This document shows positions 34,955 to 50,587 of a stretch of DNA of 64,000 nt, in pieces. The notes beneath the pieces were generated by a model. It was given only the letters and a program-made list of their open reading frames with translations. It had not been told where the DNA came from and searched no databases. A program made the position numbers and the translations under genes. The first letter of the stretch is position 1, and every line of letters starts with the position of its first letter. The stretch is from Synechococcales cyanobacterium bin31.maxbin.ball.101 (lineage in GTDB: Bacteria > Cyanobacteriota > Cyanobacteriia > Leptolyngbyales > Leptolyngbyaceae), in contig JAAFJU010000005.1 in the NCBI GenBank assembly GCA_013298165.1, positions 1-64,000 on the forward strand, written 5' to 3'.

Positions 34955-37363
34955 ATGGCTATGGATCCAATCAGAAATGGAAGCTCTGCTTCTCAAGGGA
35001 ATGCTCTGAATCCTCAGTCATCCGTTCCTGAACTTTCTGATCGGGACCGCACCATGATTGATCGGGCGATCGTCTACGCCCAGCAATCCGCCACGAATAG
35101 TCGATCGGACGATGAGGATGGCGAAGATGGCGAAGAGATTTCCATTCAGAAGATCTTTGCGTTTCTCAAGCGTCGGGCCTGGATTATGGCATCCGTGGGC
35201 GGCATTTCTGCCCTGGGTCTTTGCACGATGGTGATGGGGAGTCCACCGAGTTATATTGGCACCTTTAGGCTGTTGGCGGAACCTGTGACGAGCGGCAGTC
35301 AACTGGCCGATGATCTGACCGCCGATGCGGTGCAAAGTAACCAAGCCACCACGCGCCGATCGGTTTCGAATGCGTTGGACAATAGCAAAATTGACTATGT
35401 CAGTCAGATTGAAGTTCTCAAGAGTGAGACGACCTTAGAGCCAATTATCAAGCGCATCCAGGAAAAGTATCCTAAAATTACATACTCCACTCTTGTTAAT
35501 AGTATGAAAATCCAGCGCCCTAAGGACACCAAGGTGCTTGATTTTGCCTATGCTTCTAAAAATCCTGACGAAATCGATGTGGTGTTGAAGGAGTTGTCAG
35601 CGGGATTTATTCGTTACAGCATTGACGATCGGCGCAACAACCTCAAAGAAGGCAGCCAGTTCATCGAGGAACGCATTCAAAAACAGCGTCAAGAAGTCGA
35701 AGCCTTAGAAAGCAAACTCAGCATTCTGCGGAAACAATACAACATTGTTGATCCGAAAGCGGTCGTCGATCGGTTGGCCGATCAAATGAAAACGATGACC
35801 AGCGAGCAAGCCGCAACCCGGATTAAACTCGCTTCGGTCCAGAGCCTCTACGACAATCTCAAGCGGCAAACGGGCGTTGCACCCCAGCAAGCTCTAGCCC
35901 TGGCCAATTTGAGTGAATCCCCCAGCTATCAAGCACTCCTGACCAAACTCAGAGAAATTGATACCAAGATCGCCTTGGAATCAACGCGATTTGAAAATAC
36001 AACGCCGATGATGCAACTGCTGCAATCCCAGCGCAAGGAACTGTTGCCTGTGCTGCAAGCCGAAGCGCAGCGGATTATGGGAATTGATAATGGGGATTCG
36101 ACAAATCCTGAGGCGCTGGGATTTCAGGGTGCTGTGGGTCGAGACCTGACCAAGCAATTAGTGGATGCCGCGAATCAACTGCAGATTTTGACCAATCAAG
36201 CCCAGGTGATTCAACAGACGATCGCCCAGAATGGCCAGCAGACTCAAAATATTGCTGGAATTTCGTTGGAATATACCAAAGTGGTGCGCGAGATTGATAT
36301 TGCCACCAACAGTTTGACCCGGCTCCTCCTCGCTCGGGAAAACCTTCAGCTTGAATCCGCTCGTCAAGCGGCACCTTGGCAAATGCTGTCGAAGATTGAC
36401 GATCGCAGCATTGGCATCACAGGCAATAAGCCCATGATGTTTTTGCTGAGCTTACTGGCCAGCGGCGTGATTGGTTTAGTTGCGGCTTTGATTGCAGAAC
36501 AGCTCGATCGTGTTTTCCATGACGTTGAAGAACTCAAGGAAACCAATCTCCCCACCTTGGGAATTATTCCGTTCTACCAAGGTCTCAAACAAGAAACGGC
36601 CTTTGCCAATTTGGGCCGCTTAGCGCCGCAGGTGGATTCGCCTGCAGACCGGAAGTCTCAGCAATCCCATGCCGCATTCTTGGAATCGTTTTATACCCTT
36701 GATGCGAACCTGCGACTGCTGGGATCGGATCACCCGATTCGATCGATTACCATTACGTCCGCCAGTCCCGCAGATGGAAAATCGAGTATTTCATCTCATT
36801 TAGCTTGGGCCGCAGTCGCTATGGGCCGTAAGGTTCTACTCATTGACACGGACCTGCGGCGACCCCAGGTTCATCGCTGGTTTGGGATGCCAAATCTTCG
36901 GGGCTTAAGTAATGTGATTACGTCGGATACTGACATTCACGACTTCATTCAAGAATCCCCCCAAGATCCCAATCTATCCTTGCTGGCAGCAGGTCCGTTG
37001 CCGCCTTCTCCGGGACGACTGTTGAGTTCGAATAAAATGCGATCGTTGATTCAGCAGATGACGGAAGAGTATGACTTAGTGATTTGCGATGCCCCTCCGG
37101 TCGTGTTTGCGGATGCGAAACTGACGGCAGCGCATACGGATGGCATTCTCGTTGTTGTGGGTGTGGGTAAGACCGATCGGACCCATGTGTTGCAGGCATT
37201 GGGCGATCTGAAGGGGAATGCGCAATGTCCTGTGTTGGGGATTGTAGCGAACGGGGTGAAGAGTGCCGCCAGTGCCTCGTCCTATTACTACCAACGCTAT
37301 TACGAACAACGACCCGAGAAGAAATCGATTCTGTCTCCTCGCAAATTGCAGAAGCGATCGTAG
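34955..37363 (+). CDS. Wzc-like polysaccharide co-polymerase / BY-kinase
   Basis: 802 residues, fused PCP-2a membrane protein and bacterial tyrosine kinase. TM1 at about 72-92, a long extracytoplasmic coiled-coil domain (to about 485), TM2 at about 488-508, then a P-loop kinase with Walker A' SPADGKSS, Walker A'-type LLIDTDLRRP and VICDAPP. The C-terminus has a Tyr cluster (SSYYYQRYYEQ) for autophosphorylation. Such proteins control chain length and export of Wzx/Wzy-made polysaccharide, matching the flippase and polymerase genes downstream on the other strand. GGAG precedes the ATG. Confidence 0.92.
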   Translation: MAMDPIRNGSSASQGNALNPQSSVPELSDRDRTMIDRAIVYAQQSATNSRSDDEDGEDGEEISIQKIFAFLKRRAWIMASVGGISALGLCTMVMGSPPSYIGTFRLLAEPVTSGSQLADDLTADAVQSNQATTRRSVSNALDNSKIDYVSQIEVLKSETTLEPIIKRIQEKYPKITYSTLVNSMKIQRPKDTKVLDFAYASKNPDEIDVVLKELSAGFIRYSIDDRRNNLKEGSQFIEERIQKQRQEVEALESKLSILRKQYNIVDPKAVVDRLADQMKTMTSEQAATRIKLASVQSLYDNLKRQTGVAPQQALALANLSESPSYQALLTKLREIDTKIALESTRFENTTPMMQLLQSQRKELLPVLQAEAQRIMGIDNGDSTNPEALGFQGAVGRDLTKQLVDAANQLQILTNQAQVIQQTIAQNGQQTQNIAGISLEYTKVVREIDIATNSLTRLLLARENLQLESARQAAPWQMLSKIDDRSIGITGNKPMMFLLSLLASGVIGLVAALIAEQLDRVFHDVEELKETNLPTLGIIPFYQGLKQETAFANLGRLAPQVDSPADRKSQQSHAAFLESFYTLDANLRLLGSDHPIRSITITSASPADGKSSISSHLAWAAVAMGRKVLLIDTDLRRPQVHRWFGMPNLRGLSNVITSDTDIHDFIQESPQDPNLSLLAAGPLPPSPGRLLSSNKMRSLIQQMTEEYDLVICDAPPVVFADAKLTAAHTDGILVVVGVGKTDRTHVLQALGDLKGNAQCPVLGIVANGVKSAASASSYYYQRYYEQRPEKKSILSPRKLQKRS

Positions 37364-37482: not shown

Positions 37483-39306
37483 TTACACTGCAACATAAGG
37501 CGTTGCTTGTGTTTGGTCACGCCACGATCGGGCGTAGGTCCCGTTTTGTTCAAGCAGCGTATTGTGGTTGCCGGATTCAATCACCTCTCCGCCTTGCAAC
37601 ACATGGATCATATCCGCCCGCATCGCCAAGGTAAATCGGTGGGTAATCACGATCGCCGTGCGCCCATTGGCCATTCCCCGGAACCGATCGAGCCAGTCAT
37701 GCTCCGACCAAGAATCCATAAAACTGGTTGGCTCGTCCAAGATCAAAATCGGGGCTTGACGGATAAAGGCTCTGGCCAAGGCTATGCGTTGCCATTCGCC
37801 GCCACTTAAGTCGGTTCCTTCCGCGAACCATTTTCCAAGTCTTGTATTTTCCTGCTGGGGCAGACGATCGATAATTTCAGTTGCACCCGCTTCTGCAATG
37901 GCACTGCGGATTTCGTCCGGCGCAATCTCGCGATCGACATCCCCGAGGGCAATGTTTTCAGAAACCGTTTTCTGATAGGTCACTGGAAACTGGAACATCA
38001 CCGTCAACATCGATCGCCATTCGGCTTGGGAAAAGTCACGAATGTCGGCGTTATCGAGATTCACACTGCCCGTCTCGGGATCGTAAAACCGACAAAGCAA
38101 TTTAATCAGCGTACTTTTTCCAGCCCCATTTTCACCCACGATCGCCACAATCTTACCCGCAGGAATCGTCAGATTAAAGTCTTTGAAAATCCACCGATCG
38201 CTTCCAGGATAACGAAAGCTAACGTTTCGCAGTTCGATGCTTTCTTGGGGGGCGATCGGAATGGGTTTGGGTTGCGGCGGATCAACTAAGGTAGACGCCA
38301 TGTTGAGGTATTCAAAGAGATTGCCTAAGTACAGACTATTGCCGTAAATCTGACTAAGCTGCGTCAAAATCCCTTTGGCCAAGCCCTGGCCTCGGTTGAA
38401 GGCTTGATAAAAGAGGGCTAAATCGCCCAAGGTGAATTTACCTTGTAGCGCTTGCCAGAGCATCCAGGCCAAGGCCAAACCCGCCACCACCATCGCCATT
38501 AAACTCCCGCCCAATTGGGCGATCGTTTGTTCTTGGATCAGGCTGATATTTTCATTACGAAGCTGAGTGCGAAACCCTTCATAGCGCTTCCGAAAGTTAT
38601 CCCCTAACCCAAAAAGGCGCAATTCTGCTGCGGTATAACTTTGGGTAATCAGAAAGTCATGATATTCCGCTTGGCGACGCAGGGGTGTCGTCCGTTCCCA
38701 CCAGCGATGGTATTGTCGGTTGAATTTGGACAGAAAGTAAAAGGCAGGTAATGCGCTGATGATTAAGACGATCGGCAACCACAACCCGTAGGGAATCAAG
38801 ACAGCGGCGATCGTCACCAGCGTAATCAAATTCTGAATCAAACTCCCACTACTTTCAAGCAGTGTAATCGGACGACTGCTGGAATTGTTCCGGGCCTGAT
38901 GGAGCTTGTCATGAAACTCGGGCATCTCATGGAATGCCAGGTCCGCTTCGATCGACTTACGATGAACCAATGAATGAATATGGTCTGCCACATACTCAGA
39001 TTGAATCGTCCGTAAAATTGAGAGTCCTGTTTTTGCGAGTTCCGATAAGAGCAACGTTGCGCCCATGAGGAGGCAGGGCATCAGGAGAAGTTGAATACTG
39101 ACTTCGACATTCCTAAGGGCGATCGCCTGCACCAAGGTATCCACCAGCAGCTTCGTCAAATAAACCGTCGCCCCCGGCAGCAACCCCTGAATCACCAGCA
39201 AAATCCCCCAGCCCACCGTCGCCCGAGGCGCAGAAGCCCAGACCAAATCCAGGGTGGGTTTGATATAAACCAGTTGACTCAAGGCACGACGAAGCTTCTT
39301 CAACAT
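37483..39306 (-). CDS. ABC transporter of the lasso-type cluster (exporter/immunity)
   Basis: 607-residue fused permease-ATPase of the McjD/LasD type. Six transmembrane helices in the N-terminal half, then an ATPase domain with GENGAGKST (Walker A, about residue 390), LSGGEWQR signature, ILILDEPTSFMD and the ITHR switch. It lacks a C39 peptidase domain, as usual for lasso exporters, where the leader is removed by B2. Expected function: export of the mature peptide and self-protection. Last gene of the minus-strand cluster. Confidence 0.88.
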   Translation of the reverse strand: MLKKLRRALSQLVYIKPTLDLVWASAPRATVGWGILLVIQGLLPGATVYLTKLLVDTLVQAIALRNVEVSIQLLLMPCLLMGATLLLSELAKTGLSILRTIQSEYVADHIHSLVHRKSIEADLAFHEMPEFHDKLHQARNNSSSRPITLLESSGSLIQNLITLVTIAAVLIPYGLWLPIVLIISALPAFYFLSKFNRQYHRWWERTTPLRRQAEYHDFLITQSYTAAELRLFGLGDNFRKRYEGFRTQLRNENISLIQEQTIAQLGGSLMAMVVAGLALAWMLWQALQGKFTLGDLALFYQAFNRGQGLAKGILTQLSQIYGNSLYLGNLFEYLNMASTLVDPPQPKPIPIAPQESIELRNVSFRYPGSDRWIFKDFNLTIPAGKIVAIVGENGAGKSTLIKLLCRFYDPETGSVNLDNADIRDFSQAEWRSMLTVMFQFPVTYQKTVSENIALGDVDREIAPDEIRSAIAEAGATEIIDRLPQQENTRLGKWFAEGTDLSGGEWQRIALARAFIRQAPILILDEPTSFMDSWSEHDWLDRFRGMANGRTAIVITHRFTLAMRADMIHVLQGGEVIESGNHNTLLEQNGTYARSWRDQTQATPYVAV

Positions 39307-39409: not shown

Positions 39410-40321
39410 TTAGGAATTCAAAAAGTGGGATTCAAGCATCGTAGCGAGTTTTGGGAGATCTTCCAGGTTTTGCGATCGGATCATCCGATAAAAGGGGAGA
39501 GATTTTGCAAAATCGGTACATTGTTTAAACTGCGCAGGACTATGCTGTTGCAGCCACATGGTGGGTAATGAGTTTTTCATCATGCCAAAGACCGCATCAA
39601 TCTGTGCGCAGGGTTGAATATCGAGCGCTTCTCCAGCTTCTAACACGTAGATCTGTTTCAGGGGCAATGGCGTCTCTATAAATTGATGACGCGCATCAAA
39701 ACTCACTTCTCCGCATTCAGGATGTTTCTCAATAATGTGCGTTTCGCCGTAGTCCAGACAGGCGGCAACGGGTTCAGAGATCTTGAGGCGCGGATAGCCC
39801 GGATAGACCCAGTAGCCGCCCTCTTTAAAGACGATCGGAACGGCATCATCAGACAGTAATCGATGGCCTCTTTTGTACAGAGCCGCAGCAGTGGAAGACT
39901 TTCCGGTGCCCGACGGTGCAATGACTCCGACGACTTGATCCCCGATCGCCATGGCACTCCCATGCAGCGCTAAAATTCCGCGCTGATAGAGCAACACGGT
40001 TAGAATCGTGCCTAAAATATAGAGCCGAATTTGATTAAGATCTTGCGCCTCACTCGGTTGAATCAGAACTTCGCGCCCTTCCTTGAGGATAAAAAGCCCG
40101 TAGCGCCGATCGAATAACGTCCCCTCTTTTTCGTTTAAATCAGCGTAAATTAAATGAGGGCAGTTGTACCGATCGAAATCGGCGACCGTTGGATCAAAAT
40201 TAATATAGACATCGGCTTTTGATAAAAGCATCCCGCCACTTAAGGACGGCAATAAGGACGGCAAAGCTGGAATCTCAAGATTAGAATGAATGACTAATCC
40301 ATAAACCCAATAATGATGCAT
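39410..40321 (-). CDS. HprK-like peptide kinase of the lasso-type cluster
   Basis: 303 residues, related to the catalytic domain of HPr kinase. P-loop APSGTGKS at 135-142, the LLSDDAVPI segment at 155-163 (HprK-type acidic pair), and KISEP about 25 residues on. Kinases of this type occur in lasso clusters (for example in the paeninodin family), where they phosphorylate a C-terminal Ser of the precursor. Neither precursor here ends in Ser, so its target residue is open. It lies 178 bp after the second precursor, beyond a hairpin. Confidence 0.8.
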   Translation of the reverse strand: MHHYWVYGLVIHSNLEIPALPSLLPSLSGGMLLSKADVYINFDPTVADFDRYNCPHLIYADLNEKEGTLFDRRYGLFILKEGREVLIQPSEAQDLNQIRLYILGTILTVLLYQRGILALHGSAMAIGDQVVGVIAPSGTGKSSTAAALYKRGHRLLSDDAVPIVFKEGGYWVYPGYPRLKISEPVAACLDYGETHIIEKHPECGEVSFDARHQFIETPLPLKQIYVLEAGEALDIQPCAQIDAVFGMMKNSLPTMWLQQHSPAQFKQCTDFAKSLPFYRMIRSQNLEDLPKLATMLESHFLNS

Positions 40322-40498: not shown

Positions 40499-40702
40499 TT
40501 AACGAACAGGATTACCGTTGTTGGTAATGTCGATCAACGATCCGCCAGTGGCGATCGGAGTCGTCACAGAAACACCGTTCACGACTAAGACGATCGAGTC
40601 TCCGCTACCCAATTTTTTGTTGAAATCAACGTTATTTTGGGTGATTTTGGAGGCAGGGCCGTAGTTCTTAAGTGCAGGAGTAGACCATGTTTGCTTTGTC
40701 AT
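40499..40702 (-). CDS. Lasso-type RiPP precursor 1
   Basis: 67 residues. The leader TWSTPALKNYGPASKIT (residues 5-21) matches the W/YxxPxLxxYGxxxxIT recognition sequence bound by PqqD-like B1 proteins. The following region has KKLGSGDSIVLVVNGVSV and ends with SLIDITNNGNPVR. The only Asp that could close a lasso ring is in GSGD; no Thr at the expected second-last leader position precedes a start seven to nine residues before it. A good ribosome site (AAAGGA) supports translation. Paralogue of the next gene. Confidence 0.8.
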   Translation of the reverse strand: MTKQTWSTPALKNYGPASKITQNNVDFNKKLGSGDSIVLVVNGVSVTTPIATGGSLIDITNNGNPVR

Positions 40703-40768
40703 TTTAAGTTCCTTTGGTAGACAAGATTTATCAGTTGAAATTCATCATCTGAGTGTGCAAATTGAAGT

Positions 40769-40972
40769 CTAGTTCCGTTGGATGTTGATGAGCGATCGCC
40801 CAGCAGCAGCCCCAGAAGCCACAACAGTTGTGACGCCTGCGATCGTGACAGTGATCGTATCACCTGCACCACCGCTTTTTGTCACAGTCCCGACGGGCTG
40901 TTGTTCTGTGATATCTTCTACGTTGCCGTAGAAGCTTAGTCGAGGTTTCGACCAAGGTTGTTTTTCAATCAT
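40769..40972 (-). CDS. Lasso-type RiPP precursor 2
   Basis: 67 residues. Leader PWSKPRLSFYGNVEDIT (6-22), then QQPVGTVTKSGGAGDTITVT, an Ala/Gly/Val-rich stretch and SLINIQRN at the end. Shares with precursor 1 the pattern G-x-G-D-[ST]-I, GV[ST] and SLI[DN]I. If the core begins at the Thr after GTV, Thr would sit at leader position -2 and the Asp at core position 8, but the core would be 37 residues, much longer than known lasso peptides. AGGA is well placed before the ATG. Confidence 0.8.
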   Translation of the reverse strand: MIEKQPWSKPRLSFYGNVEDITEQQPVGTVTKSGGAGDTITVTIAGVTTVVASGAAAGRSLINIQRN

Positions 40973-41147: not shown

Positions 41148-43046
41148 TTAAATTCTGTCTAACCAAATCCCCAAGTTCGTGGCGGCGTAGACTTGGAGTG
41201 CGGCCTGCTCGTTGAGGGGATCCTGATTGTATTGTTGATAGGCTTGGGCGAGGAAGTTTGACTCTAGATAGCTTGTGATCACTGAGTTGGGATTGAGAAT
41301 ATATTTTTCAATCCGCGATCGTTCTTCCTGCAGGAGTCGGGGCTTGGTATTGGCTCCGAGGTTGGCTTTGCTAAGACGCTGACGAATTTCATCCGGTAAA
41401 ATTCCCTGGGTTCCCCGTCGCGCAATCAGCCGAGTGATCCCCTGTCGAAACTTCTGTTCTGGCGGTAAAGAGACGCAAAATTGCATCAAGCGCCGATCGC
41501 AAAAGGGATATCTCAGTTCCACATCAAAGGCCGCTGCGGACCTGTCGGCGAGTTCCAGTGCATACTGCAACAGTCCGGACTGGAGGCTATAGCAATGGGC
41601 ATGGCGGGCCGTTGTCATCTCAGGCAAATGATACTGCTGTTTCAGAAGTTTTTGCGCGTAGGTGGACAGCTTTAACTGTTGCGCAAATTTTGGCTGAAGT
41701 CCCGATCGTTTCCATAGGGGAGACCGGGCTTCTTGGAGCATGGCCCATCCAGAATAAAGCCAGCGAGGAATCTTGCCTTTAAAGCCCCAGTCCCAGGCTA
41801 GTAGAGGGATTGGGTAGTTTGTAACGCGAGCGTAGGCGCGGATTTCTTTGGCAAATTGTTTGAATTTCCCCGTATCTAGCAACTCAATTAAATAGGGCTG
41901 ACCGTGGGAAACGGTGCTGTCTCCGTCAATGCCATCCATCACAATGCGAACTTGATTGCTTTTAGCCCGATCGTACCAAGCCCAGTTGTAGTAGAGATTA
42001 GGGGCAAAAAATGGCTCATCCATATGCCAAAACATTTGTTCCGCATGGCCGAGGGGATTGAGCCGATCGCCTTCAATAAAGTGCGGGGTGAAGTTGCCTT
42101 GTTCGAGGACTTTTTCCACATAAAAGCGTTCATCAATCAGCTTGCGATGCGCTTCGGGTAAATTGTCAAAACTTGTGGAAAAGGTGTGAACGGTGTTGTG
42201 TTGTGTTTCACCCAGCAAGGTCCTAGCCGTACAGGCGATCGAGCTAGAGTCCAAGCCACCGCTGAGCATAGAGCCAATGGGAAAGGCCGATCGCATTCGA
42301 CAGCGCACGGCCTCGGTCAACTGCTCCCGATAGGCTTCAGCGTAGTCATAGTCGGAGCTAAGCTTGAGTTCGGTATCGCGATCGAGCTGCCAATATTGTC
42401 GCATGGCAAATTTGCCCGCCGCCACTGTGAGGCAGTGGGCAGCGGGCAAACGCAGGATATGTTCGTAGGCTGTGATTTCGGGGTCTTCTAAAAGCCGCAT
42501 CATGAGTTGAGCAATGCGCAACTCATTAACGATTTTTGGAATCTTCGGGACTTGGAAAAGCGCTTTGATTTCGGAGGCGAAGGCAAAGAGATGCGGCGAA
42601 TGGTAATAAACAAAGGGTTTAATTCCCATCGGATCGCGGGCACAGAAGAGTTTTTGCTGTGGCTGATCCCAAATGGCAAAGGCAAAATCGCCAATCAGCT
42701 TTTCAGGACAGTCTTCACCCCATCGACCATAGGCCGACAAAATCAGGTCACTGTCGGTGATCTTGCCGGGTTCTCGCCGATCGAGTCCCAGTTGTTCAAT
42801 CAGTTCGGTTCGATTATCAATGCGAGCATCCGCCGTAATCACCCAAGCATTTTGCTGCTTAGGCAATGCTTCAATCAGCGACTCCGGCGTCGTCCAAAGC
42901 ATCCGAGACCCCAGTCCAACCTGCCCCTCTGCCCAAACCCCACCTCCATCTTTGCCGCGATGCTTCAGACTATCCGTCATCGCTGCGAGGGTATGGGAGT
43001 CAATGGGTTCTTGATTTAGGGCGTAAAGCCCAACGATCGCACTCAT
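41148..43046 (-). CDS. Asparagine-synthetase-like lasso cyclase (C protein)
   Basis: 632 residues, asparagine synthetase B homologue. The N-terminal glutaminase-like domain begins MSAIVG: Ser replaces the catalytic Cys2, so it cannot release ammonia from glutamine. The C-terminal domain keeps the ATP pyrophosphatase loop SGGLDSS (262-268). In lasso clusters this protein adenylates an Asp/Glu side chain of the core for macrolactam formation with the new N-terminus. Gene order with B1, B2 and precursors supports that role rather than asparagine synthesis. The long C-terminus (about 420-630) includes the conserved YPFCDRRLMQFC segment. Confidence 0.9.
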   Translation of the reverse strand: MSAIVGLYALNQEPIDSHTLAAMTDSLKHRGKDGGGVWAEGQVGLGSRMLWTTPESLIEALPKQQNAWVITADARIDNRTELIEQLGLDRREPGKITDSDLILSAYGRWGEDCPEKLIGDFAFAIWDQPQQKLFCARDPMGIKPFVYYHSPHLFAFASEIKALFQVPKIPKIVNELRIAQLMMRLLEDPEITAYEHILRLPAAHCLTVAAGKFAMRQYWQLDRDTELKLSSDYDYAEAYREQLTEAVRCRMRSAFPIGSMLSGGLDSSSIACTARTLLGETQHNTVHTFSTSFDNLPEAHRKLIDERFYVEKVLEQGNFTPHFIEGDRLNPLGHAEQMFWHMDEPFFAPNLYYNWAWYDRAKSNQVRIVMDGIDGDSTVSHGQPYLIELLDTGKFKQFAKEIRAYARVTNYPIPLLAWDWGFKGKIPRWLYSGWAMLQEARSPLWKRSGLQPKFAQQLKLSTYAQKLLKQQYHLPEMTTARHAHCYSLQSGLLQYALELADRSAAAFDVELRYPFCDRRLMQFCVSLPPEQKFRQGITRLIARRGTQGILPDEIRQRLSKANLGANTKPRLLQEERSRIEKYILNPNSVITSYLESNFLAQAYQQYNQDPLNEQAALQVYAATNLGIWLDRI

Positions 43047-43065: not shown

Positions 43066-43530
43066 TCAAAGTGATCCGGCCATTCCTTGATAAAACTGTT
43101 TTTCGAGTCGCTTGTACCGATCGATTTCAGGCAGCCAGCCCATGACGATCTGTTGTTCGCTTTCGATCCAAGCATGGGCTTGAAGTTCTCCGCTTTCCGC
43201 TTTGAGGACGCCGATACAGAGGTCATAGGGATAGCCATTCTGACCCATGAGAATTTGAGTGGTCATGGCTTTGGCTAAACATTTTGCACCTCCAGGCATC
43301 ACTTTTGCGGCCCGGTCTACAGACCAAGTCAGACCGTAGAGGGTGTAGTAGCCATCCGATCGAAGGGTCTTCTGAGCGATCCGATCGACTTTGGCCTGTA
43401 GCTGCGCAAAGCGTAAAAATCGTAGTCCCAATCGCACTAAGGTCAACCAGAAAAAGGCTTGCAGAAACAGACCTATGGCGGCGAGTTTAATTCGAATGCC
43501 ATTTTTGATTTTATGGAGCAATGATTTCAT
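43066..43530 (-). CDS. Lasso B2 leader peptidase (transglutaminase-like)
   Basis: About 154 residues. Homologue of the B2/McjB C-terminal cysteine protease that removes the leader. Catalytic Cys in PGGAKCLAKAM (C84) and His in LQAHAWIE (H119); the third residue is not clear, since the place where many B2 proteins have Asp reads GW. An N-terminal hydrophobic stretch (AAIGLFLQAFFWLTLVRLGL) may touch the membrane. The ATG at 43530 lies 13 bp after the B1 stop and is preferred over a TTG that overlaps B1. Confidence 0.88.
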   Translation of the reverse strand: MKSLLHKIKNGIRIKLAAIGLFLQAFFWLTLVRLGLRFLRFAQLQAKVDRIAQKTLRSDGYYTLYGLTWSVDRAAKVMPGGAKCLAKAMTTQILMGQNGYPYDLCIGVLKAESGELQAHAWIESEQQIVMGWLPEIDRYKRLEKQFYQGMAGSL

Positions 43531-43543
43531 GCCTTCATCCCCC

Positions 43544-43822
43544 TTAGTCAAGACTAATTAAGTCGGCTTCACTCAGACTGATGAGCAGTTCTTTGAGTTC
43601 CCGATCGCAGTCTTCGGGGGTGACATCATATTCATCTAAGAGTGTTTGCCGAAGGTCTGCAAGGGTCTGGGGGGTTTGGATCAGGGTCCAGATTTTGACG
43701 CCGACGTTGTTAAGTCCGTAGTACAGCCCGGAGGTCATGTGCAGCAAGATAGTTTCGCCTTCGAGGTCCGATGAGATTTGATCGGGGAGGGCTGAAATGA
43801 GGGTCGTATCGATTAAGGTCAT
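43544..43822 (-). CDS. Lasso B1 protein (PqqD-like leader-binding domain)
   Basis: 92-residue standalone RiPP recognition element. The PqqD fold shows in ETILLHMTSGLYYGLNNVGVKIWTLI (beta strands followed by the first helix) and the C-terminal helices with DVTPEDCDRELKELLISL. It binds the precursor leader and presents it to B2. Separate B1 and B2 genes are the norm outside proteobacteria. Stop codon 13 bp ahead of B2, so probably co-translated. Confidence 0.9.
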   Translation of the reverse strand: MTLIDTTLISALPDQISSDLEGETILLHMTSGLYYGLNNVGVKIWTLIQTPQTLADLRQTLLDEYDVTPEDCDRELKELLISLSEADLISLD

Positions 43823-43928: not shown

Positions 43929-45170
43929 TCATTTGACGAGGAACTTAAAGAGGTTTTGGCGATAGTCTCGGATGATGCGGAGGGGGCGGATTAGGTAGTA
44001 GAGGAAGTGGAGTGGTTTTGGCAATTGGATCACGTCGGTGTCGCGGTAGTTGATGGCGAGGCTGAATTTGATGACTCGTTCGATCGAGCCTAATACATAT
44101 TTACGACGAGCGGATGTGTATTTTAGTCCAACCCATTTGAGGATGAGAGCTTCGATCGGATTTCGAGATTTGAGGGTTTCAAATTCGTACATGAATTTTC
44201 GGCAAATCCGATCGACGAGCCAAGTGGTGGACCGATCGCGTTTGATATGGGTGAGTACGTCGTCGGGGAGTGGGGCTTCGAGGAGTTGGTGGGCGAGGAG
44301 TAAGCCGAATCCGATGATGCGATCGGTTTTAAGCTTACGGGTTTCGGAGAGGATGTAGTCCCATTCGAGGTGTTCGGCTTGGCGCTGGAGGATGCCTGCG
44401 ACGTCACAGACGCTGCGTAGGATTTCCCAGCCGTCTTTGAAGCCGTTCATGCAGAGGTAGATGAGGAGATCGCTGTGGGAGAAGGTTTGGATTTCTTTGC
44501 CTGCGATCGTGATGGTGATGAGTCGGTTCCAGAGTTGGGGGAGATCGCCGAAGAGGGTGAGATCTCCGTTCCCTAAGGGGCGACGGTGAATATCTAAGGT
44601 GATGCCGTTTTTTTCGCGAACCAGGGGGTATTCACCGAAGTAGTAGCGGAAGCGATCTTCTTCTCCTTCGGATATTGCAATACGAGGTGGAGTAATGTAA
44701 CCATACTGAGAAAGTATCAGCTTTGGCTTGAGGTAGTCTTCTTGTGAAGTCAAAATATCTAAATCATCAAAAGAACGCAAATCTAATTTCCCATAGGCAA
44801 ATAAGGATAGAAGTGGTCCTTTGTAAGGGATTGCACAAATGTTTGTTTCTTTCAGAATACTAAGGACACGAATTAATTCAAAAAACATCTTAAGTGCTTG
44901 ATTTTGGTGCGCTCCAATATTATTAGCAATAGTAAAAGAGAGCTTTTTTCTGACTCTTGAAGGAATATTTTTCCAGTTCTTCTGATTTAATCTATAGTGC
45001 AAGATGGGAATATTTCGATGAATGATTGCAAGATCAACTACTTTTAACCAATCAATCTCCTCTAAAAAATTATCTAGGATAGGCTTTTCTAAATTATTTA
45101 AATCTACATAAAAAACAGTTGTAGAAGTAGGAACAGAATATCTAGGACAAATTGAGAGTTCAGAATCCAT
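43929..45170 (-). CDS. Nucleotidyltransferase-fold protein of the lasso-type cluster
   Basis: 413 residues of the uncharacterised nucleotidyltransferase family (PF14907 type) often found beside lasso genes and HprK-like kinases. The NTase core includes ICAIPYKGPLLSLFAYGKLDLRSFDDLDIL (Gly-containing loop and acidic DDLD pair) and ITLDIHRRPLG as the third acidic strand. In pseudomycoidin biosynthesis a homologue adds hexoses to the phosphate placed by the kinase, so a similar tailoring step is possible. AT-richer in its 5' half than its 3' half. First gene of the peptide cluster, 51 bp after a glycosyltransferase gene. Confidence 0.8.
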   Translation of the reverse strand: MDSELSICPRYSVPTSTTVFYVDLNNLEKPILDNFLEEIDWLKVVDLAIIHRNIPILHYRLNQKNWKNIPSRVRKKLSFTIANNIGAHQNQALKMFFELIRVLSILKETNICAIPYKGPLLSLFAYGKLDLRSFDDLDILTSQEDYLKPKLILSQYGYITPPRIAISEGEEDRFRYYFGEYPLVREKNGITLDIHRRPLGNGDLTLFGDLPQLWNRLITITIAGKEIQTFSHSDLLIYLCMNGFKDGWEILRSVCDVAGILQRQAEHLEWDYILSETRKLKTDRIIGFGLLLAHQLLEAPLPDDVLTHIKRDRSTTWLVDRICRKFMYEFETLKSRNPIEALILKWVGLKYTSARRKYVLGSIERVIKFSLAINYRDTDVIQLPKPLHFLYYLIRPLRIIRDYRQNLFKFLVK

Positions 45171-45221: not shown

Positions 45222-46355
45222 CTATGGATTCAGATGATATTCCGATTGTTGTGAATTGTGGACTACTTCTTTGTAAAGGACCATTGTTTTTTTCATCATA
45301 TGTGTGAATTCAAAGACTGATTTGTAAGATGATCGGCTTTTAGAACCCATTTCAGCACGTAGGTTAGGACTGTTGGACAATTTTTCTAAGCGCTTAGTAA
45401 GAGTAATCGTATCACCTCGTGGGATACAATATCCATTGATGCCATCTAAGACTGCTTCAGATACACCACCAACATCAGATGCCACGATTGGAAGCCCTGC
45501 GCGCATCGCCTCAAGAATTGATCTAGGAAAGCCTTCCCAGTTAGATATTAATACAAAAAAGTGAGCTTCACTTAAGACCTTTGCAATTTGTGGACTATTG
45601 CATGATCCTAAGAAGCAAACTCGGTTAGATAGTTCTAGCTTTTTGACAAGGTCTTTATTTTTTTGTAGCAGTGGACCATCTCCGATTAAGTCAAGATGTA
45701 GATTAGGAACGTTAGCTAAAGCTCTCAGTAGCGTTCGGTGATCTTTTTGACGATCGAAACGAGCAATCATTACTGCACGTACTACGGGAGAGGGTAGGTG
45801 AGGTTGAGAATATAATGAAGATGAGATGTCAGGCATTCCATTATGGACAGTTATTAATCTATGAGGAGACATCCCAATGCGCACTCCTAATTTACGATCG
45901 TAATGTGATACGCAAATTATGGTATTAGAAAACTGCTCTACCGCCTTTTCTATACGTTTATAGATCTCGCTTTGTAATTTTGGCACACCATTTGTAAATG
46001 ACCATCCATGTGCAGTAAAAATACAAGGTATGTTAAGTGAATGACAAACAAGACGTCCAATAATACCTGCTTTGCTTGAATGCAGGCTAACCATATCAGG
46101 CTGAAATTGCGATATCTTCCTTTTTAATTCTAGGAATATCTGGAAATCGTTAAACAATGAAATTTCTGAAAGAAATTTACTGCAAGAGGTGTTTGGTATT
46201 GAGTATGAATCTAATTCAAAGTTGTATATCCCATTTTTTCCAGTGATCACCATTACCTCATGGCCATAAGATATTAGATAGTTGGCAATATCTCGCACAT
46301 GGATCTGTGCCCCACCTATCGTATCCGATCGTGTAATGACAAATAATATTCTCAT
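45222..46355 (-). CDS. Glycosyltransferase family 4
   Basis: 377-residue GT-B enzyme of the GT4 family. N-terminal acceptor domain (RILFVITRSDTIGGAQIHV, VSLHSSKAGIIGRLVCH, FTAHGWSF) and C-terminal donor domain with ARFDRQKDHRTLLRA, and the EX7E-type motif in SNWEGFPRSILEAMRAGLPIVAS. Transfers a sugar to the lipid-linked repeat unit at the inner membrane face. Clearly paralogous to the GT4 at 47535-48644. Start taken at MRILF; the frame opens nine codons earlier. Confidence 0.87.
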   Translation of the reverse strand: MRILFVITRSDTIGGAQIHVRDIANYLISYGHEVMVITGKNGIYNFELDSYSIPNTSCSKFLSEISLFNDFQIFLELKRKISQFQPDMVSLHSSKAGIIGRLVCHSLNIPCIFTAHGWSFTNGVPKLQSEIYKRIEKAVEQFSNTIICVSHYDRKLGVRIGMSPHRLITVHNGMPDISSSLYSQPHLPSPVVRAVMIARFDRQKDHRTLLRALANVPNLHLDLIGDGPLLQKNKDLVKKLELSNRVCFLGSCNSPQIAKVLSEAHFFVLISNWEGFPRSILEAMRAGLPIVASDVGGVSEAVLDGINGYCIPRGDTITLTKRLEKLSNSPNLRAEMGSKSRSSYKSVFEFTHMMKKTMVLYKEVVHNSQQSEYHLNP

Positions 46356-46420
46356 TGCCCAAGACTTATGCGAATTTAGCATCTTAGACTTAAATTAAGA
46401 AGAAGTTAAGTCTTCTTAAT

Positions 46421-47434
46421 TTATACAGGAATATAATAGTAAGACTTATACCATTCAGAAAACTTTTCAATTCCTTCACAAATTGAAGTTGATGGGTAAA
46501 ATCCAAAATCTTGTTCTAAATCTTTTGTGTCTGCATAGGTTGCAGACACATCACCTGGTTGCATAGGCAAAAAGATTTTCTTAGCTGTTTGGCCTAGAGA
46601 GACTTCAAGCTGTTCAATAAAGTCCATTAATTGAATAGGGGAGCTACTTCCAATATTGTAAATTTTATATGAAGGATTAATATTAGGGATAGCTTTTTCA
46701 TTCTTAGAATTAGTATTTGAAGATAGGTGAGAATTAAGGATAGCGATCGTACATTTCACTACGTCATCTATGTAAGTAAAGTCGCGTGACATCAAGCCAT
46801 TATTGAAGATGTTAATTGGATGACCTTTCAAAATTGCCTCTGCAAATAAGCAGGGAGCCATATCAGGTCTACCCCAAGGTCCATACACAGTAAAAAATCT
46901 TAGTCCCGTCATGGATATTCCATAAAGGTGACTATAACTATAGGCCATGAGTTCATTTGATGCTTTAGTCGCAGCATATAAGCTCATAGGACGACTAATA
47001 TGATCTGAAGTGGAGAATGGTATTTTTGAATTAGCTCCATATACTGAACTAGAGGAGGCAAAAATTAGGTGAGGAACTGAAGATTGTCTGCATCCTTCTA
47101 AAATATTATGGAAACCGACTAAATTACTATCTATGTATTCATAGGGTTTCTCTAGAGAGAAGCGAACACCGGCTTGCGCGGCAAGATTAATAACACAGTC
47201 AAAATGATTCTCTTCAAATAGTTTCTGGATACTAATCCGATCGGATAAATCAACCTTTTGAAATTTGAAGTTTGAATGTTTTTCGATTTCAGATAATCTA
47301 TTTTTTTTTAAATCCACATCATAATAAGAGCTTAAGTTGTCAATGCCTATGACCTGTTCACCACGATCGAGTAATTTTTTCGCAATATGAAGTCCAATAA
47401 ATCCAGCCACTCCAGTTACCAAAATGCTAGACAT
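46421..47434 (-). CDS. NAD-dependent epimerase, UDP-glucuronate 4-epimerase type
   Basis: 337-residue extended short-chain dehydrogenase. NAD motif GVAGFIGLHIA at residues 8-18, Ser in ASSSSVYG, catalytic YAATK near 153, and TGLRFFTVYGPWGRPDMA, typical of UDP-glucuronate 4-epimerases. It would supply UDP-galacturonate for the polysaccharide. Length is standard. Located between two paralogous GT4 genes. Confidence 0.85.
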   Translation of the reverse strand: MSSILVTGVAGFIGLHIAKKLLDRGEQVIGIDNLSSYYDVDLKKNRLSEIEKHSNFKFQKVDLSDRISIQKLFEENHFDCVINLAAQAGVRFSLEKPYEYIDSNLVGFHNILEGCRQSSVPHLIFASSSSVYGANSKIPFSTSDHISRPMSLYAATKASNELMAYSYSHLYGISMTGLRFFTVYGPWGRPDMAPCLFAEAILKGHPINIFNNGLMSRDFTYIDDVVKCTIAILNSHLSSNTNSKNEKAIPNINPSYKIYNIGSSSPIQLMDFIEQLEVSLGQTAKKIFLPMQPGDVSATYADTKDLEQDFGFYPSTSICEGIEKFSEWYKSYYYIPV

Positions 47435-47534
47435 AAGCCTTTAGATTGATTTACATTCAAAATCTTATCATTTTAATTGTGTTTACATTTTACTCGATGA
47501 AATTATATAGAAAATTTTACAGTTAAATAAATTA

Positions 47535-48644
47535 TTAATTGTGAGACATTAAGATATCCTTATATATTTTAGAAATTTCTTCCACCATATAGGAAATTGT
47601 AAATTGCGATTCAAATTTTTTTCGCCCTTCTTCACCGAAACTTGCTCGTAGCTGTGGAGATTCAGTCATTATTTTGAGAGTTTCAGCTAAACTTTCAATA
47701 TTTCTAGGTGGGACGATTAAACCTGTAGATTGGTGTTCAACTTCTTCAGGTACACCATTCACAGCACTTGCAAGTACGGGTAAACCAGCGCGCATTGCTT
47801 CAAGAATACTAATTGGGAGTCCCTCATAGTGGGTACTGAGAATAAATGCTTGCGATTGAGCCAATAAATCAGGGACATCTAATCGATCGCCAAGAAAGGA
47901 TACACGCTCCCATACACCTAGCTCTTTAGCAAGCTGCTTACATGATTCTAAAGATGGACCACTTCCAACAAAATCGATATGCAGTGGAAGCTGAGGTATT
48001 AAGGCTAACGCTTTCAGGAGTGTAGGTTGATCTTTCTGCTCATTAAAACGAGCAACCATGATAAAACGCGGTGGTTGCTTAGATAAGTTAGGGGACTGAA
48101 TAGGTTTGTCGTGGATGCCATATCGAACAGTCGTGAGAACTCGTTTATTTCCTATAGATTTATTCAAAGCTTGCTGTCGATCGCTCTCTGAAACACAAAT
48201 GATTCGCGCAGTCAAAGAGGCCAATAATTTCTCAACGACAAGTGCTATTAAACCTCTAAACTTTGGAGTACCTGGCGAGAACCCCCACCCATGTGCAGTA
48301 AAAACCGTTGGAACGTTACATATTTTTCCGGCGATGCGAGAGATTGTCCCGGCTTTACTACTATGCGCATGAATCAGTTCAGGCTTTACCTGATGAATTA
48401 AGCCAATAAAATCCTTCACACATTTAAAATCCTTTGCAGGATTAATACTTCGTATCAGACTAGGGATGATGTAAACAGGAATATTTAAAGAGGTTACATT
48501 GTCAACTAGTGGACCTAGACATCCAACAGCAAGAATGACGTTATAGCGAGACGAGAATGACTGAAGCAGATCAAGAACATGACCTTGAGCGCCTCCAAGA
48601 TCGCTATTGGTAATTACATACAAAATTGTAGGGCGGGATGACAT
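47535..48644 (-). CDS. Glycosyltransferase family 4
   Basis: 369 residues, GT4. Same landmarks as the neighbouring GT4: ILYVITNSDLGGAQGHV, IHAHSSKAGTISRIAGK, FTAHGWGFSPGTPKF, ARFNEQKDQPTLLKAL, STHYEGLPISILEAMRAGLPVLAS. The high similarity of both, including FTAHGW and HSSKAG, points to gene duplication followed by divergence in donor or acceptor preference. Sugar specificity is unknown. Confidence 0.88.
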   Translation of the reverse strand: MSSRPTILYVITNSDLGGAQGHVLDLLQSFSSRYNVILAVGCLGPLVDNVTSLNIPVYIIPSLIRSINPAKDFKCVKDFIGLIHQVKPELIHAHSSKAGTISRIAGKICNVPTVFTAHGWGFSPGTPKFRGLIALVVEKLLASLTARIICVSESDRQQALNKSIGNKRVLTTVRYGIHDKPIQSPNLSKQPPRFIMVARFNEQKDQPTLLKALALIPQLPLHIDFVGSGPSLESCKQLAKELGVWERVSFLGDRLDVPDLLAQSQAFILSTHYEGLPISILEAMRAGLPVLASAVNGVPEEVEHQSTGLIVPPRNIESLAETLKIMTESPQLRASFGEEGRKKFESQFTISYMVEEISKIYKDILMSHN

Positions 48645-48742
48645 ATTATCTTACTAGTTCAGAGAATCACAATAAATTGACTAATGCCTGAAGACTATCA
48701 CAAAAGTTTAATGCATAACAAACAAGTAAAGCTCACTTCGAT

Positions 48743-49417
48743 TCATTCAAACGATTCTGGTACATTCCAAGAATCTTTACTGCCCAAGACTCCATAGTAG
48801 GTGATGTAAAATAGTAGTTTTTTCGTTTCACTCAGAACCCATTTACGAGAAGCTTCATCTTCCCACCAATTCCCATACGAAGTATCCGATAAATCGTAAG
48901 CAGAAAAGGTTTTTACTTCAATCGAATTACCTAGAACATGATCGAATACCCATTTAGATCGACGTAGGTGATACTTACTAGTAACGATCGTTATGGATCT
49001 CGGCTTCAATTGATATTTTTCAAGAACCTTCGAAAAAGCACGTGCTTCTCCAAAGGTCGTCTCTGGATTATGACCTCCCCAAAATATCTTAACTTTAGAT
49101 GTGTCTGTCCTTTGAGAGAGTTGCTGAAAGTATTCAGCAGAGATTGAGTCTACATACAACATGTTAGACTTTCCTTGTCTTACTAACTTCTCTGCAGTCT
49201 CTATTCGATTTGTACCACCTAAAGCAACAATAATATCTGAATCTACGTTAACACTTTCTTGAGAAAGCCAAGCACCATATGCTCTAAGAATAGGCTGATG
49301 CAAGGAAACGGTTAAAACTGATAGAGAAATAAGAAAAGCAAAATATTTTTTTTTATTTGAATGAGTTAAGTGATTTTTTTCACCTTGAAACGATCTTCGA
49401 CAGTTCAATATTTTCAT
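48743..49417 (-). CDS. YdcF/SanA-like DUF218 protein
   Basis: 224 residues. A hydrophobic N-terminal segment (YFAFLISLSVLTVSLHQPIL, about 25-45) anchors a DUF218 domain: DIIVALGGTNRIETAEKLV, GEARAFSKVLEKY and ITIVTSKYHLRRSKWVF are the family signatures. Members such as SanA and ElyC act in envelope and lipid-carrier metabolism but the reaction is unknown. Its place in a polysaccharide cluster fits a role in undecaprenyl-linked precursor handling. Confidence 0.8.
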   Translation of the reverse strand: MKILNCRRSFQGEKNHLTHSNKKKYFAFLISLSVLTVSLHQPILRAYGAWLSQESVNVDSDIIVALGGTNRIETAEKLVRQGKSNMLYVDSISAEYFQQLSQRTDTSKVKIFWGGHNPETTFGEARAFSKVLEKYQLKPRSITIVTSKYHLRRSKWVFDHVLGNSIEVKTFSAYDLSDTSYGNWWEDEASRKWVLSETKKLLFYITYYGVLGSKDSWNVPESFE

Positions 49418-49460
49418 CTGAGAACCCTGGACGTTAACGACAAAAAGTGTTGGTATTTAG

Positions 49461-50519
49461 CTAAATTATTTGAGCATTTTTTAATTTTTGATTTAGATAT
49501 GACTCCGAATGATTTTTTTCAAAAAATTCTATTGCAGACCAATACCGCTGCTCATATTCCTGGAAAGACATGCTAAAGATTTTATCCAAGCAATTTAATA
49601 TAGAGTCAGGCGAACTAAAATCAACGACCAACGTAAAATCCAGGTCTTTAATATCTTTAAACGACTCAATATCATTAATAATCAACAGTTTTCCATATGC
49701 TAAAGCCTCAGTAACCGTTCCACTCTGAGTATTATTTAGATAGGGAATGACTAGAAAATGCGACAGTCCCATCAAAAAAGATTTTCCATTTTGTGATAAA
49801 TACCCAGGAAATTCGATAATCCTTTTTGTGTCATACGATACTTTTCCGACCAGATCTCTCCCTGCCCTAACAAAATCAACTTGATCACCATATATAGAAC
49901 ATGCAATGTTCATAAATGACACAAAACCATCTGGATTATTCTCTTGATTATAAAAAGTGCCGAGGAAAGAAAATTTTTTATTAAATTTCCAAGCGCTTTC
50001 TAGTTGAGCTAAATTTTTAATTAAGTTCTGCTTTCGTTGTGAAGGAAAGGTTAGATTAACTTTAAAAGATTTTTCGCTAGGAACTATATGCAATGCACGC
50101 TTCACTGCATTATCGCTAGGTAGAAAAACTTGGTTCGAAACCATACCGAGAAGTTTATTAAAAAGAAAAATCATAATAACCTTAGAATACTTTCCCCTGC
50201 GAAACTCTATAAATGGCTCATGCATTAAATAGTAAATTTTTAAATTACCATTTTTTAGGTAAGCGATCGTCCTTAGAACGAGGACTAGCGGCACATACCT
50301 AAGGTTAATTGCAAACAAAAATATTGATGTAGAAGCATTTGCAACTAAAACTGATTTAGTCAAAGTGATTAGATTCTTAAAATATTCAATAAAACTTCTT
50401 AAAGCCAAATAATTGACCTGAAACTCTTGAGTGTTAGTTAAATTAATTGCTAGGTAGAAACTTTCAGGACAATGGAATAAGTTCTTATTCTTAGGGATGA
50501 CAAGCCAATAGTTTTTCAT
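49461..50519 (-). CDS. Probable GT-B glycosyltransferase
   Basis: 352 residues, AT-rich. Weakly similar to GT1/GT4-type enzymes: an N-terminal domain with IYYLMHEPFIEFRRGK, then the donor-side features FSFLGTFYNQENNPDGF and VIPYLNNTQSGTVTEALAYGKLLIIND, in which the SGTVTEALAYG stretch corresponds to the nucleotide-sugar-binding helix. Specificity unknown. The ATG at 50519 is preferred to a GTG 13 codons earlier. Part of the minus-strand cluster. Confidence 0.65.
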   Translation of the reverse strand: MKNYWLVIPKNKNLFHCPESFYLAINLTNTQEFQVNYLALRSFIEYFKNLITLTKSVLVANASTSIFLFAINLRYVPLVLVLRTIAYLKNGNLKIYYLMHEPFIEFRRGKYSKVIMIFLFNKLLGMVSNQVFLPSDNAVKRALHIVPSEKSFKVNLTFPSQRKQNLIKNLAQLESAWKFNKKFSFLGTFYNQENNPDGFVSFMNIACSIYGDQVDFVRAGRDLVGKVSYDTKRIIEFPGYLSQNGKSFLMGLSHFLVIPYLNNTQSGTVTEALAYGKLLIINDIESFKDIKDLDFTLVVDFSSPDSILNCLDKIFSMSFQEYEQRYWSAIEFFEKNHSESYLNQKLKNAQII

Positions 50520-50587
50520 AATAGTAAGGAGTATATCACTAACAATAAGTGACCGCACGACGTAAAAATATGAGAATGAATTTAGAT

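Follow-up and report, generated by a model that had tools for sequence, protein, structure and literature searches.

A complete lasso gene set in the 64-kb window (the whole stretch of DNA analysed, 64,000 nucleotides) includes two precursor peptides, A1 and A2, in which a leader in canonical register is followed by a K-x-hydrophobic-G-x-x-D unit with a fixed Lys-Asp spacing and a floating position, and the cyclases that go with such precursors form one clade with a diagnostic insertion. On sequence comparison, the floating Lys-Asp unit with its own cyclase clade is a real, well-bounded subclass of lasso-type systems, possibly with a new ring chemistry. We give about an even chance to the reading that the leader is removed as usual and that the cyclase then joins the Asp to the Lys side chain, which would leave a free N-terminal tail.

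The cluster lies on the minus strand in the order nucleotidyltransferase-like gene, B1/PqqD, B2, cyclase C, precursors A2 and A1, HprK-like kinase and ABC exporter, with the following features:

43929..45170, minus strand: NTP_transf_5 nucleotidyltransferase-like protein (PF14907, 170.6 bits), a frequent lasso-cluster neighbour also found in related loci.
43544..43822, minus strand: B1, PqqD-type leader-binding protein (PF05402, 57.4 bits; NF033536, 70 bits, under the cut-off of 80).
43066..43551, minus strand: leader peptidase B2, transglutaminase-like (NF033537, 85 bits, cut-off 33), with Cys93 and His128 kept.
41148..43046, minus strand: lasso-type macrolactam cyclase C of the asparagine synthase family, 632 aa (NF033535, 750 bits, cut-off 525; Pfam Asn_synthase), a member of the K-type clade in the tree.
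42138..42152, minus strand: insertion diagnostic of the clade, at residues 299-303 of C (within FDNLPEAHRKLIDER), some 30 residues past the SGGLDSSS motif that binds ATP.
40769..40972, minus strand: precursor A2, 67 aa (ORF; NF033534, 23.2 bits; NF033528, 18.6 bits; unit alignment), laid out as leader MIEKQPWSKPRLSFYGNVEDITE, linker QQPVGTVT, unit K32-SGGAG-D38 and a 29-residue tail.
40859..40879, minus strand: K-x-x-G-x-x-D unit of A2, KSGGAGD, with the Asp at core position 15 from Thr(-2).
40499..40702, minus strand: precursor A1, 67 aa (ORF; leader-part match to lasso models; unit alignment), laid out as leader MTKQTWSTPALKNYGPASKITQ, linker NNVDFN, unit K29-KLGSG-D35 and a 32-residue tail.
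40598..40618, minus strand: K-x-hydrophobic-G-x-x-D unit of A1, KKLGSGD, with the Asp at core position 13 from Thr(-2).
39410..40321, minus strand: HPr-kinase-like protein, putative precursor kinase (Hpr_kinase_C, 30.3 bits, slightly below the cut-off of 33.3; HprK-related models below cut-off).
37483..39306, minus strand: ABC exporter, permease and ATPase (PF00005, MsbA-like), 60.6% identical to the neighbour at locus L051.

Precursor, B1, B2 and an asparagine-synthase-type cyclase thus stand side by side, and all 20 B2 proteins in an alignment share Cys93 and His128. The cluster seems to be located within an exopolysaccharide locus, because its flanks (34955-37363 and 45222-50558) carry genes for a Wzz/tyrosine-kinase-type chain-length protein and glycosyltransferase-type genes.

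An earlier note on this DNA had described two paralogous 67-residue peptides at 40499-40972 with normal lasso leaders, and both open reading frames are present there, sharing 42% identity, each with an ATG preceded by a purine-rich, ribosome-binding-like sequence. In lasso precursors YxxPxL always occupies positions -17 to -12 and Thr position -2 (PMC10368454); W-17, P-14, L-12 and T-2 are in exact register in A1 and A2, with Trp in place of Tyr. The words G[SA]GD[ST]I, GV[ST] and SLI[DN]I, said to be common to the two peptides, are also there. Against the NCBIfam lasso precursor models both stay below the curated cut-offs, with NF033528 at 18.6 bits versus 33 (only the leader part matches) and the rhodolasso model NF033534 at 13.4 and 23.2 bits versus 30, the higher score being that of A2.

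The claim that the cores break the standard lasso rules is correct, because positions 7, 8 and 9 of the core hold neither Asp nor Glu. By the count from Thr(-2), the earliest Asp that could close a ring stands at position 13 in A1 and 15 in A2 and the cores measure 45 and 44 residues, whereas the lasso peptides known so far have rings of 7, 8 or 9 residues and cores of 13-33 (PMC13352647). The proposed core length of 37-40 residues does not hold, as values near it (39 and 36) are obtained only by counting from the conserved Lys, and both the 44-45 residues from Thr(-2) and the 36-39 from Lys lie outside the range of about 13-33. A conventional ring on another acidic residue was considered and rejected, since none occurs at positions 7-9 and in A1 Asp4 stands too near. 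A second, hidden Thr(-2), nine residues before the Asp and hence at the start of an 8-residue ring, can be found in A2, L065 and L060; it was rejected as a general rule because it is absent in A1, L051 and most others. The C-terminal conservation, previously taken to indicate a functional tail, mostly reflects the paralogy of A1 and A2: they have SLI[DN]I in common and their nearest relatives only a loose hydrophobic pattern (TLVQIS in L060, VVKVSG in L051), so the conserved C-terminus was dropped as a key feature.

The earlier note did not mention the invariant Lys that precedes the Asp. In both A1 and A2 a Lys stands exactly six residues, and a Gly three residues, upstream of the Asp. Relatives sharing these features adjoin the nearest cyclases (L051, L060, L065), which argues that they are not chance. 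Homologues were collected by searching 386 cyanobacterial genomes with B2 as query and fetching the neighbourhoods, by taking 77 named loci by cyclase from a species-level genome collection, and by searching more cyanobacteria and genomes from the phyla to which the acidobacterial, Rokubacteria, Chloroflexi and deltaproteobacterial matches belong. Most precursors of the cyanobacterial type keep to the standard count, with 96 canonical sequences that have the Asp at position 9 in 76 and at position 8 in 20. A second class is built on K-x-hydrophobic-G-x-x-D, in which the Lys-Asp spacing is fixed (i, i+6) and the unit floats 1-9 residues past the leader Thr, placing the Asp anywhere from core position 7 to 15. 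Counted from Thr(-2), it falls at position 7 in L189/L191 (the same genes as L218/L219), 8 in L119 and L077b, 9 in L065b, L067, L069 and L111, 10 in L061, L062, L077, L082, L113, L148 and L215, 11 in L047, L060, L068, L083 and L157, 12 in L065 and L080, 13 in A1 and L154, 14 in L051 and L155, and 15 in A2. The L047 precursor is a short one that extends just 10 residues past the Asp. The unit alignment reveals no conserved residue between the leader Thr and the Lys and no Thr at a fixed distance upstream of the unit; the residue just before the Lys is N or T in 12 of 30. The invariance of Thr(-2) itself is partly a product of selection, because this residue belonged to the pattern with which the peptides were listed.

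Because the first list had been picked by the unit itself, the test was repeated on precursors picked only by their clade cyclase, the Asp being defined as the first from core position 7 on. Lys was found at D-6 in 20 of these 23 precursors and Gly at D-3 in 19, while the best residue and offset in 5000 within-segment shuffles averaged 7.3 with a maximum of 12. In each of the three exceptions another Asp follows within one to three residues, and relative to that one Lys is again at -6. Arg was never seen in place of Lys at D-6 in the unit precursors, although it makes up just 1.6% of the segments.

The fetched neighbourhoods contained several other arrangements. At L033, L038, L042, L043 and L045, genes for B1, B2, an HprK-like kinase, an ABC exporter, a nucleotidyltransferase and glycosyltransferase-like proteins are present, with no asparagine-synthase cyclase in the stretch fetched; where readable, their precursors have lasso leaders (YSEPELKAHGKISGLT-QQVGGSGGFGTT...) and no Asp or Glu in the ring range. 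L193 and L196 (L224, L225) encode peptides that combine a lasso leader with KD[MI][GA]NGV and a hydrophobic-basic tail, again with no cyclase in the fetched stretches, and L203 encodes several tandem lasso-leader precursors with long terminal RGG repeats. Archaeal lasso-type gene sets were found at L236 (a plasmid of Halopiger xanaduensis), L130/L132 and L136; the L236 precursor, unannotated in the record, is located some 200 bases past the cyclase match, and its leader is followed by EQVNKEGVASDQWSENTPLLGSIQPAPT.

Of the 23 cyclases labelled as K-type by their precursors, 22 fall into one clade of 24 (SH-aLRT 95) in a tree of 93 cyclases, where they are surrounded by cyclases that have standard lasso precursors. 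With these 22 go the Rubrobacter L115, sister to the clade and lacking the K-x-hydrophobic-G-x-x-D unit, and L072, whose contig ends before any precursor. The remaining K-labelled cyclase, L101, lies outside the clade, at a canonical locus with one chance match. The hosts comprise Cyanobacteria, Acidobacteriota, Rokubacteria, Chloroflexota, Deltaproteobacteria and Sumerlaeota and are mixed within the clade, which therefore follows the precursor type and not the host phylum. Nearly every clade locus whose sequence extends far enough carries B1 and B2.

The clade is also marked in the cyclase sequence. An insertion of 4-5 residues at C residues 299-303 is present in 22 of 22 K-type cyclases and in 0 of 60 others in the alignment; this region reads F-P-S-L-P-x-x-x-L-x-x-I-D-E-R in the K-type and F-D-x-V-P-E-C-D-E-R in the others, and there are several further class-specific residues. 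Cyclase C of this cluster belongs to the clade and has the insertion. When loop length was compared with precursor type, K-type precursors accompanied 20 of 21 inserted cyclases and 1 of 62 others (Fisher p = 5e-17, a value inflated by related sequences, although the clade spans deep divergences). An out-of-sample test on 252 further genomes and on plasmids returned L235, which has no insertion and, as predicted, a canonical D9 precursor; L234, which has the insertion and a contig ending before the precursor; and one exception, the Halopiger L236, with no insertion and yet K-E-G-V-A-S-D with the Asp at position 10. Lys at D-6 also accompanies a few other cyclases outside the clade (L055, L161/L162/L173), and these cases, like L236, may be independent or due to chance. 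L161, L162 and L173 are an acidobacterial group whose precursors contain TKG[GS]N/SKGSN..DG (the KGGNxxDG group) and whose cyclases form their own clade; the Lys(-6)-Asp arrangement may have arisen there a second time.

Homologues with an invariant Asp, mostly without a conventional Gly1-Asp8/9 ring, and cyclases that form a separate clade give good support to the suggestion that A1 and A2 represent a lasso class of an unusual kind or some other Asp-linked macrocycle. Homologues with an unambiguous short ring were looked for; the long members offer none, but some clade members fit D7, D8 or D9 by the Thr(-2) count. Overall, the earlier interpretation of A1 and A2 is partly supported.

We infer that two simple models are left, one in which the cut moves with the unit so that the N-terminus closes a ring at or near the Lys, and one with a fixed cut and the Lys side chain as nucleophile. 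Under the fixed-cut model, B1 would bind the leader through W-17, P-14 and L-12, and B2 would cut where it usually does, one residue beyond Thr(-2), so that a tail of 6 residues in A1 and 8 in A2 remains before the Lys. The clade-specific cyclase C would activate the Asp of K-x-hydrophobic-G-x-x-D with ATP, and the side-chain amine of the Lys exactly six residues upstream would attack it, giving a side-chain-to-side-chain Lys-Asp macrolactam with a predicted 26 ring atoms and an N-terminus that is consequently free and may vary in length. By arithmetic, 7-, 8- and 9-residue lasso rings have 22, 25 and 28 ring atoms, so that a Lys-Asp(i,i+6) ring of 26, between 25 and 28, could be held by the same enzyme fold. 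As in a lasso, the C-terminal segment may pass through the ring, a point beyond the reach of sequence, and the HprK-like kinase and the ABC exporter would probably phosphorylate and export the product. The general form of this proposal, that cyclases of the clade in at least six bacterial phyla make a Lys-Asp(i,i+6) macrolactam instead of using the N-terminus, with a threaded or unthreaded ring and a free, variable N-terminal tail, is in our judgement equally balanced between right and wrong. It would explain three things together, namely that Thr is kept at -2, that the linker varies freely and that the residue is always Lys. Against it count the use of the peptide N-terminus by characterised lasso cyclases (PMC13352647) and the members with Asp at 7-9, which fit an ordinary lasso equally well; the invariant Lys could instead be a recognition element or the first core residue.

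The moving-cut model describes an ordinary lasso with a longer leader, in which B2 cuts just before the Lys (a 7-residue ring, Lys1-Asp7) or one residue earlier (an 8-residue ring), with ring closure by the N-terminal amine in the usual way. It is a possible but less probable account. It retains the known cyclase chemistry and the ring sizes of 7-9 (PMC13352647); L189/L191 read T-Q-Lys1...Asp7 by the usual count, L119, L077b, L067, L069 and L111 fit D8 or D9, and N or T is common directly before the Lys. Yet the leader Thr would stand in canonical register and 1-9 residues away from the cut, no consensus surrounds the proposed cleavage site, and an invariant Lys1 or Lys2 would have no reason. 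The 8-residue version was rejected, as many different residues (N, T, G, P, V, I and others) precede the Lys, and as in L218/L219 the residue in question directly follows the Thr, after which the cut would have to fall. Closure of the N-terminus onto the same Asp after a canonical cut, with a ring size of 10-15 residues depending on the member, would need no change of cleavage site or nucleophile and agrees with the leader register. We nevertheless consider it most improbable: ring size would vary by up to 8 residues among homologous enzymes (13 versus 15 between A1 and A2), known rings have 7-9 residues (PMC13352647), and the internal Lys would be fixed for no reason. In one tight subclade the Asp is at 7 (L218/L219), 8 (L119), 9 (L067/L069/L111) or 10 (L062) from the Thr with the Lys-Asp distance constant, so that N-terminal closure at the usual cut would give these homologues rings of different size, although a one-residue change in a lasso ring sharply lowers production (PMC13352647). 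It is also unlikely, if less so, that the Asp bears no macrolactam at all, being amidated or otherwise modified, or that Lys and Asp are mere recognition determinants of a linear product. The enzyme family does include true amidotransferases, and the nearest solved structures to cyclase C are a hydroxyamidotransferase and asparagine synthetase; however, C reaches 750 bits with the lasso cyclase model, groups within cyclases that have standard lasso precursors and is accompanied by B1 and B2, and a ring closed over a turn would be expected to show just such a constant Lys-Asp distance with Gly at D-3.

Rules for lasso genome mining assume a ring from Thr(-2) to an Asp or Glu at positions 7-9, a count which the long members of this subclass fail, and the cyclase insertion is a marker by which members can be found without reading the precursor. 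Should the Lys side chain act as nucleophile, the cyclase could do without a free N-terminus at the ring, and N-terminal extensions or fusions, impossible with ordinary lassos, could ride on a lasso-like ring, which would be a kind of ring closure new to the lasso enzyme family. None of the family models or solved structures describes the K-x-hydrophobic-G-x-x-D subclass, and no description of it was found in the openly searchable papers on cyanobacterial lassos or Lys-Asp lasso chemistry. The subclass is thus provisionally regarded as previously unrecognised, since subscription literature lay outside the search.

Among known systems, the cluster resembles the class II lasso clusters with split B1/B2 (the paeninodin type with an HprK-like kinase and the cyanobacterial NF033528 family) in leader register, Thr(-2), B1, B2 and asparagine-synthase-type cyclase, as well as in its ABC exporter, HprK-like kinase and nucleotidyltransferase neighbours. 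It differs from them in that A1 and A2 have no Asp or Glu at positions 7-9, an invariant Lys six residues before the Asp, a unit that floats relative to the leader and cores of 44-45 residues versus 13-33 known, and in the diagnostic insertion of cyclase C. A ring starting from the Lys would have 7 residues, as in the xanthomonin-type lassos, but in precursors of the A1/A2 type the leader would have to be cut 1-9 residues further on than usual and the ring would begin with Lys, whereas xanthomonins start with Gly1. Lariocidin is a lasso-type product with a second isopeptide bond (PMC13352647); there the bond is added to a lasso, whereas the long members described here have no conventional ring available. 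Graspetides of the microviridin type contain a side-chain-to-side-chain Lys-Asp/Glu macrolactam, the same kind of bond as that proposed here. Theirs is made by ATP-grasp ligases, none of which appeared in the Pfam scan of the cluster proteins, whereas the candidate ligase of this cluster belongs to the asparagine-synthase family.
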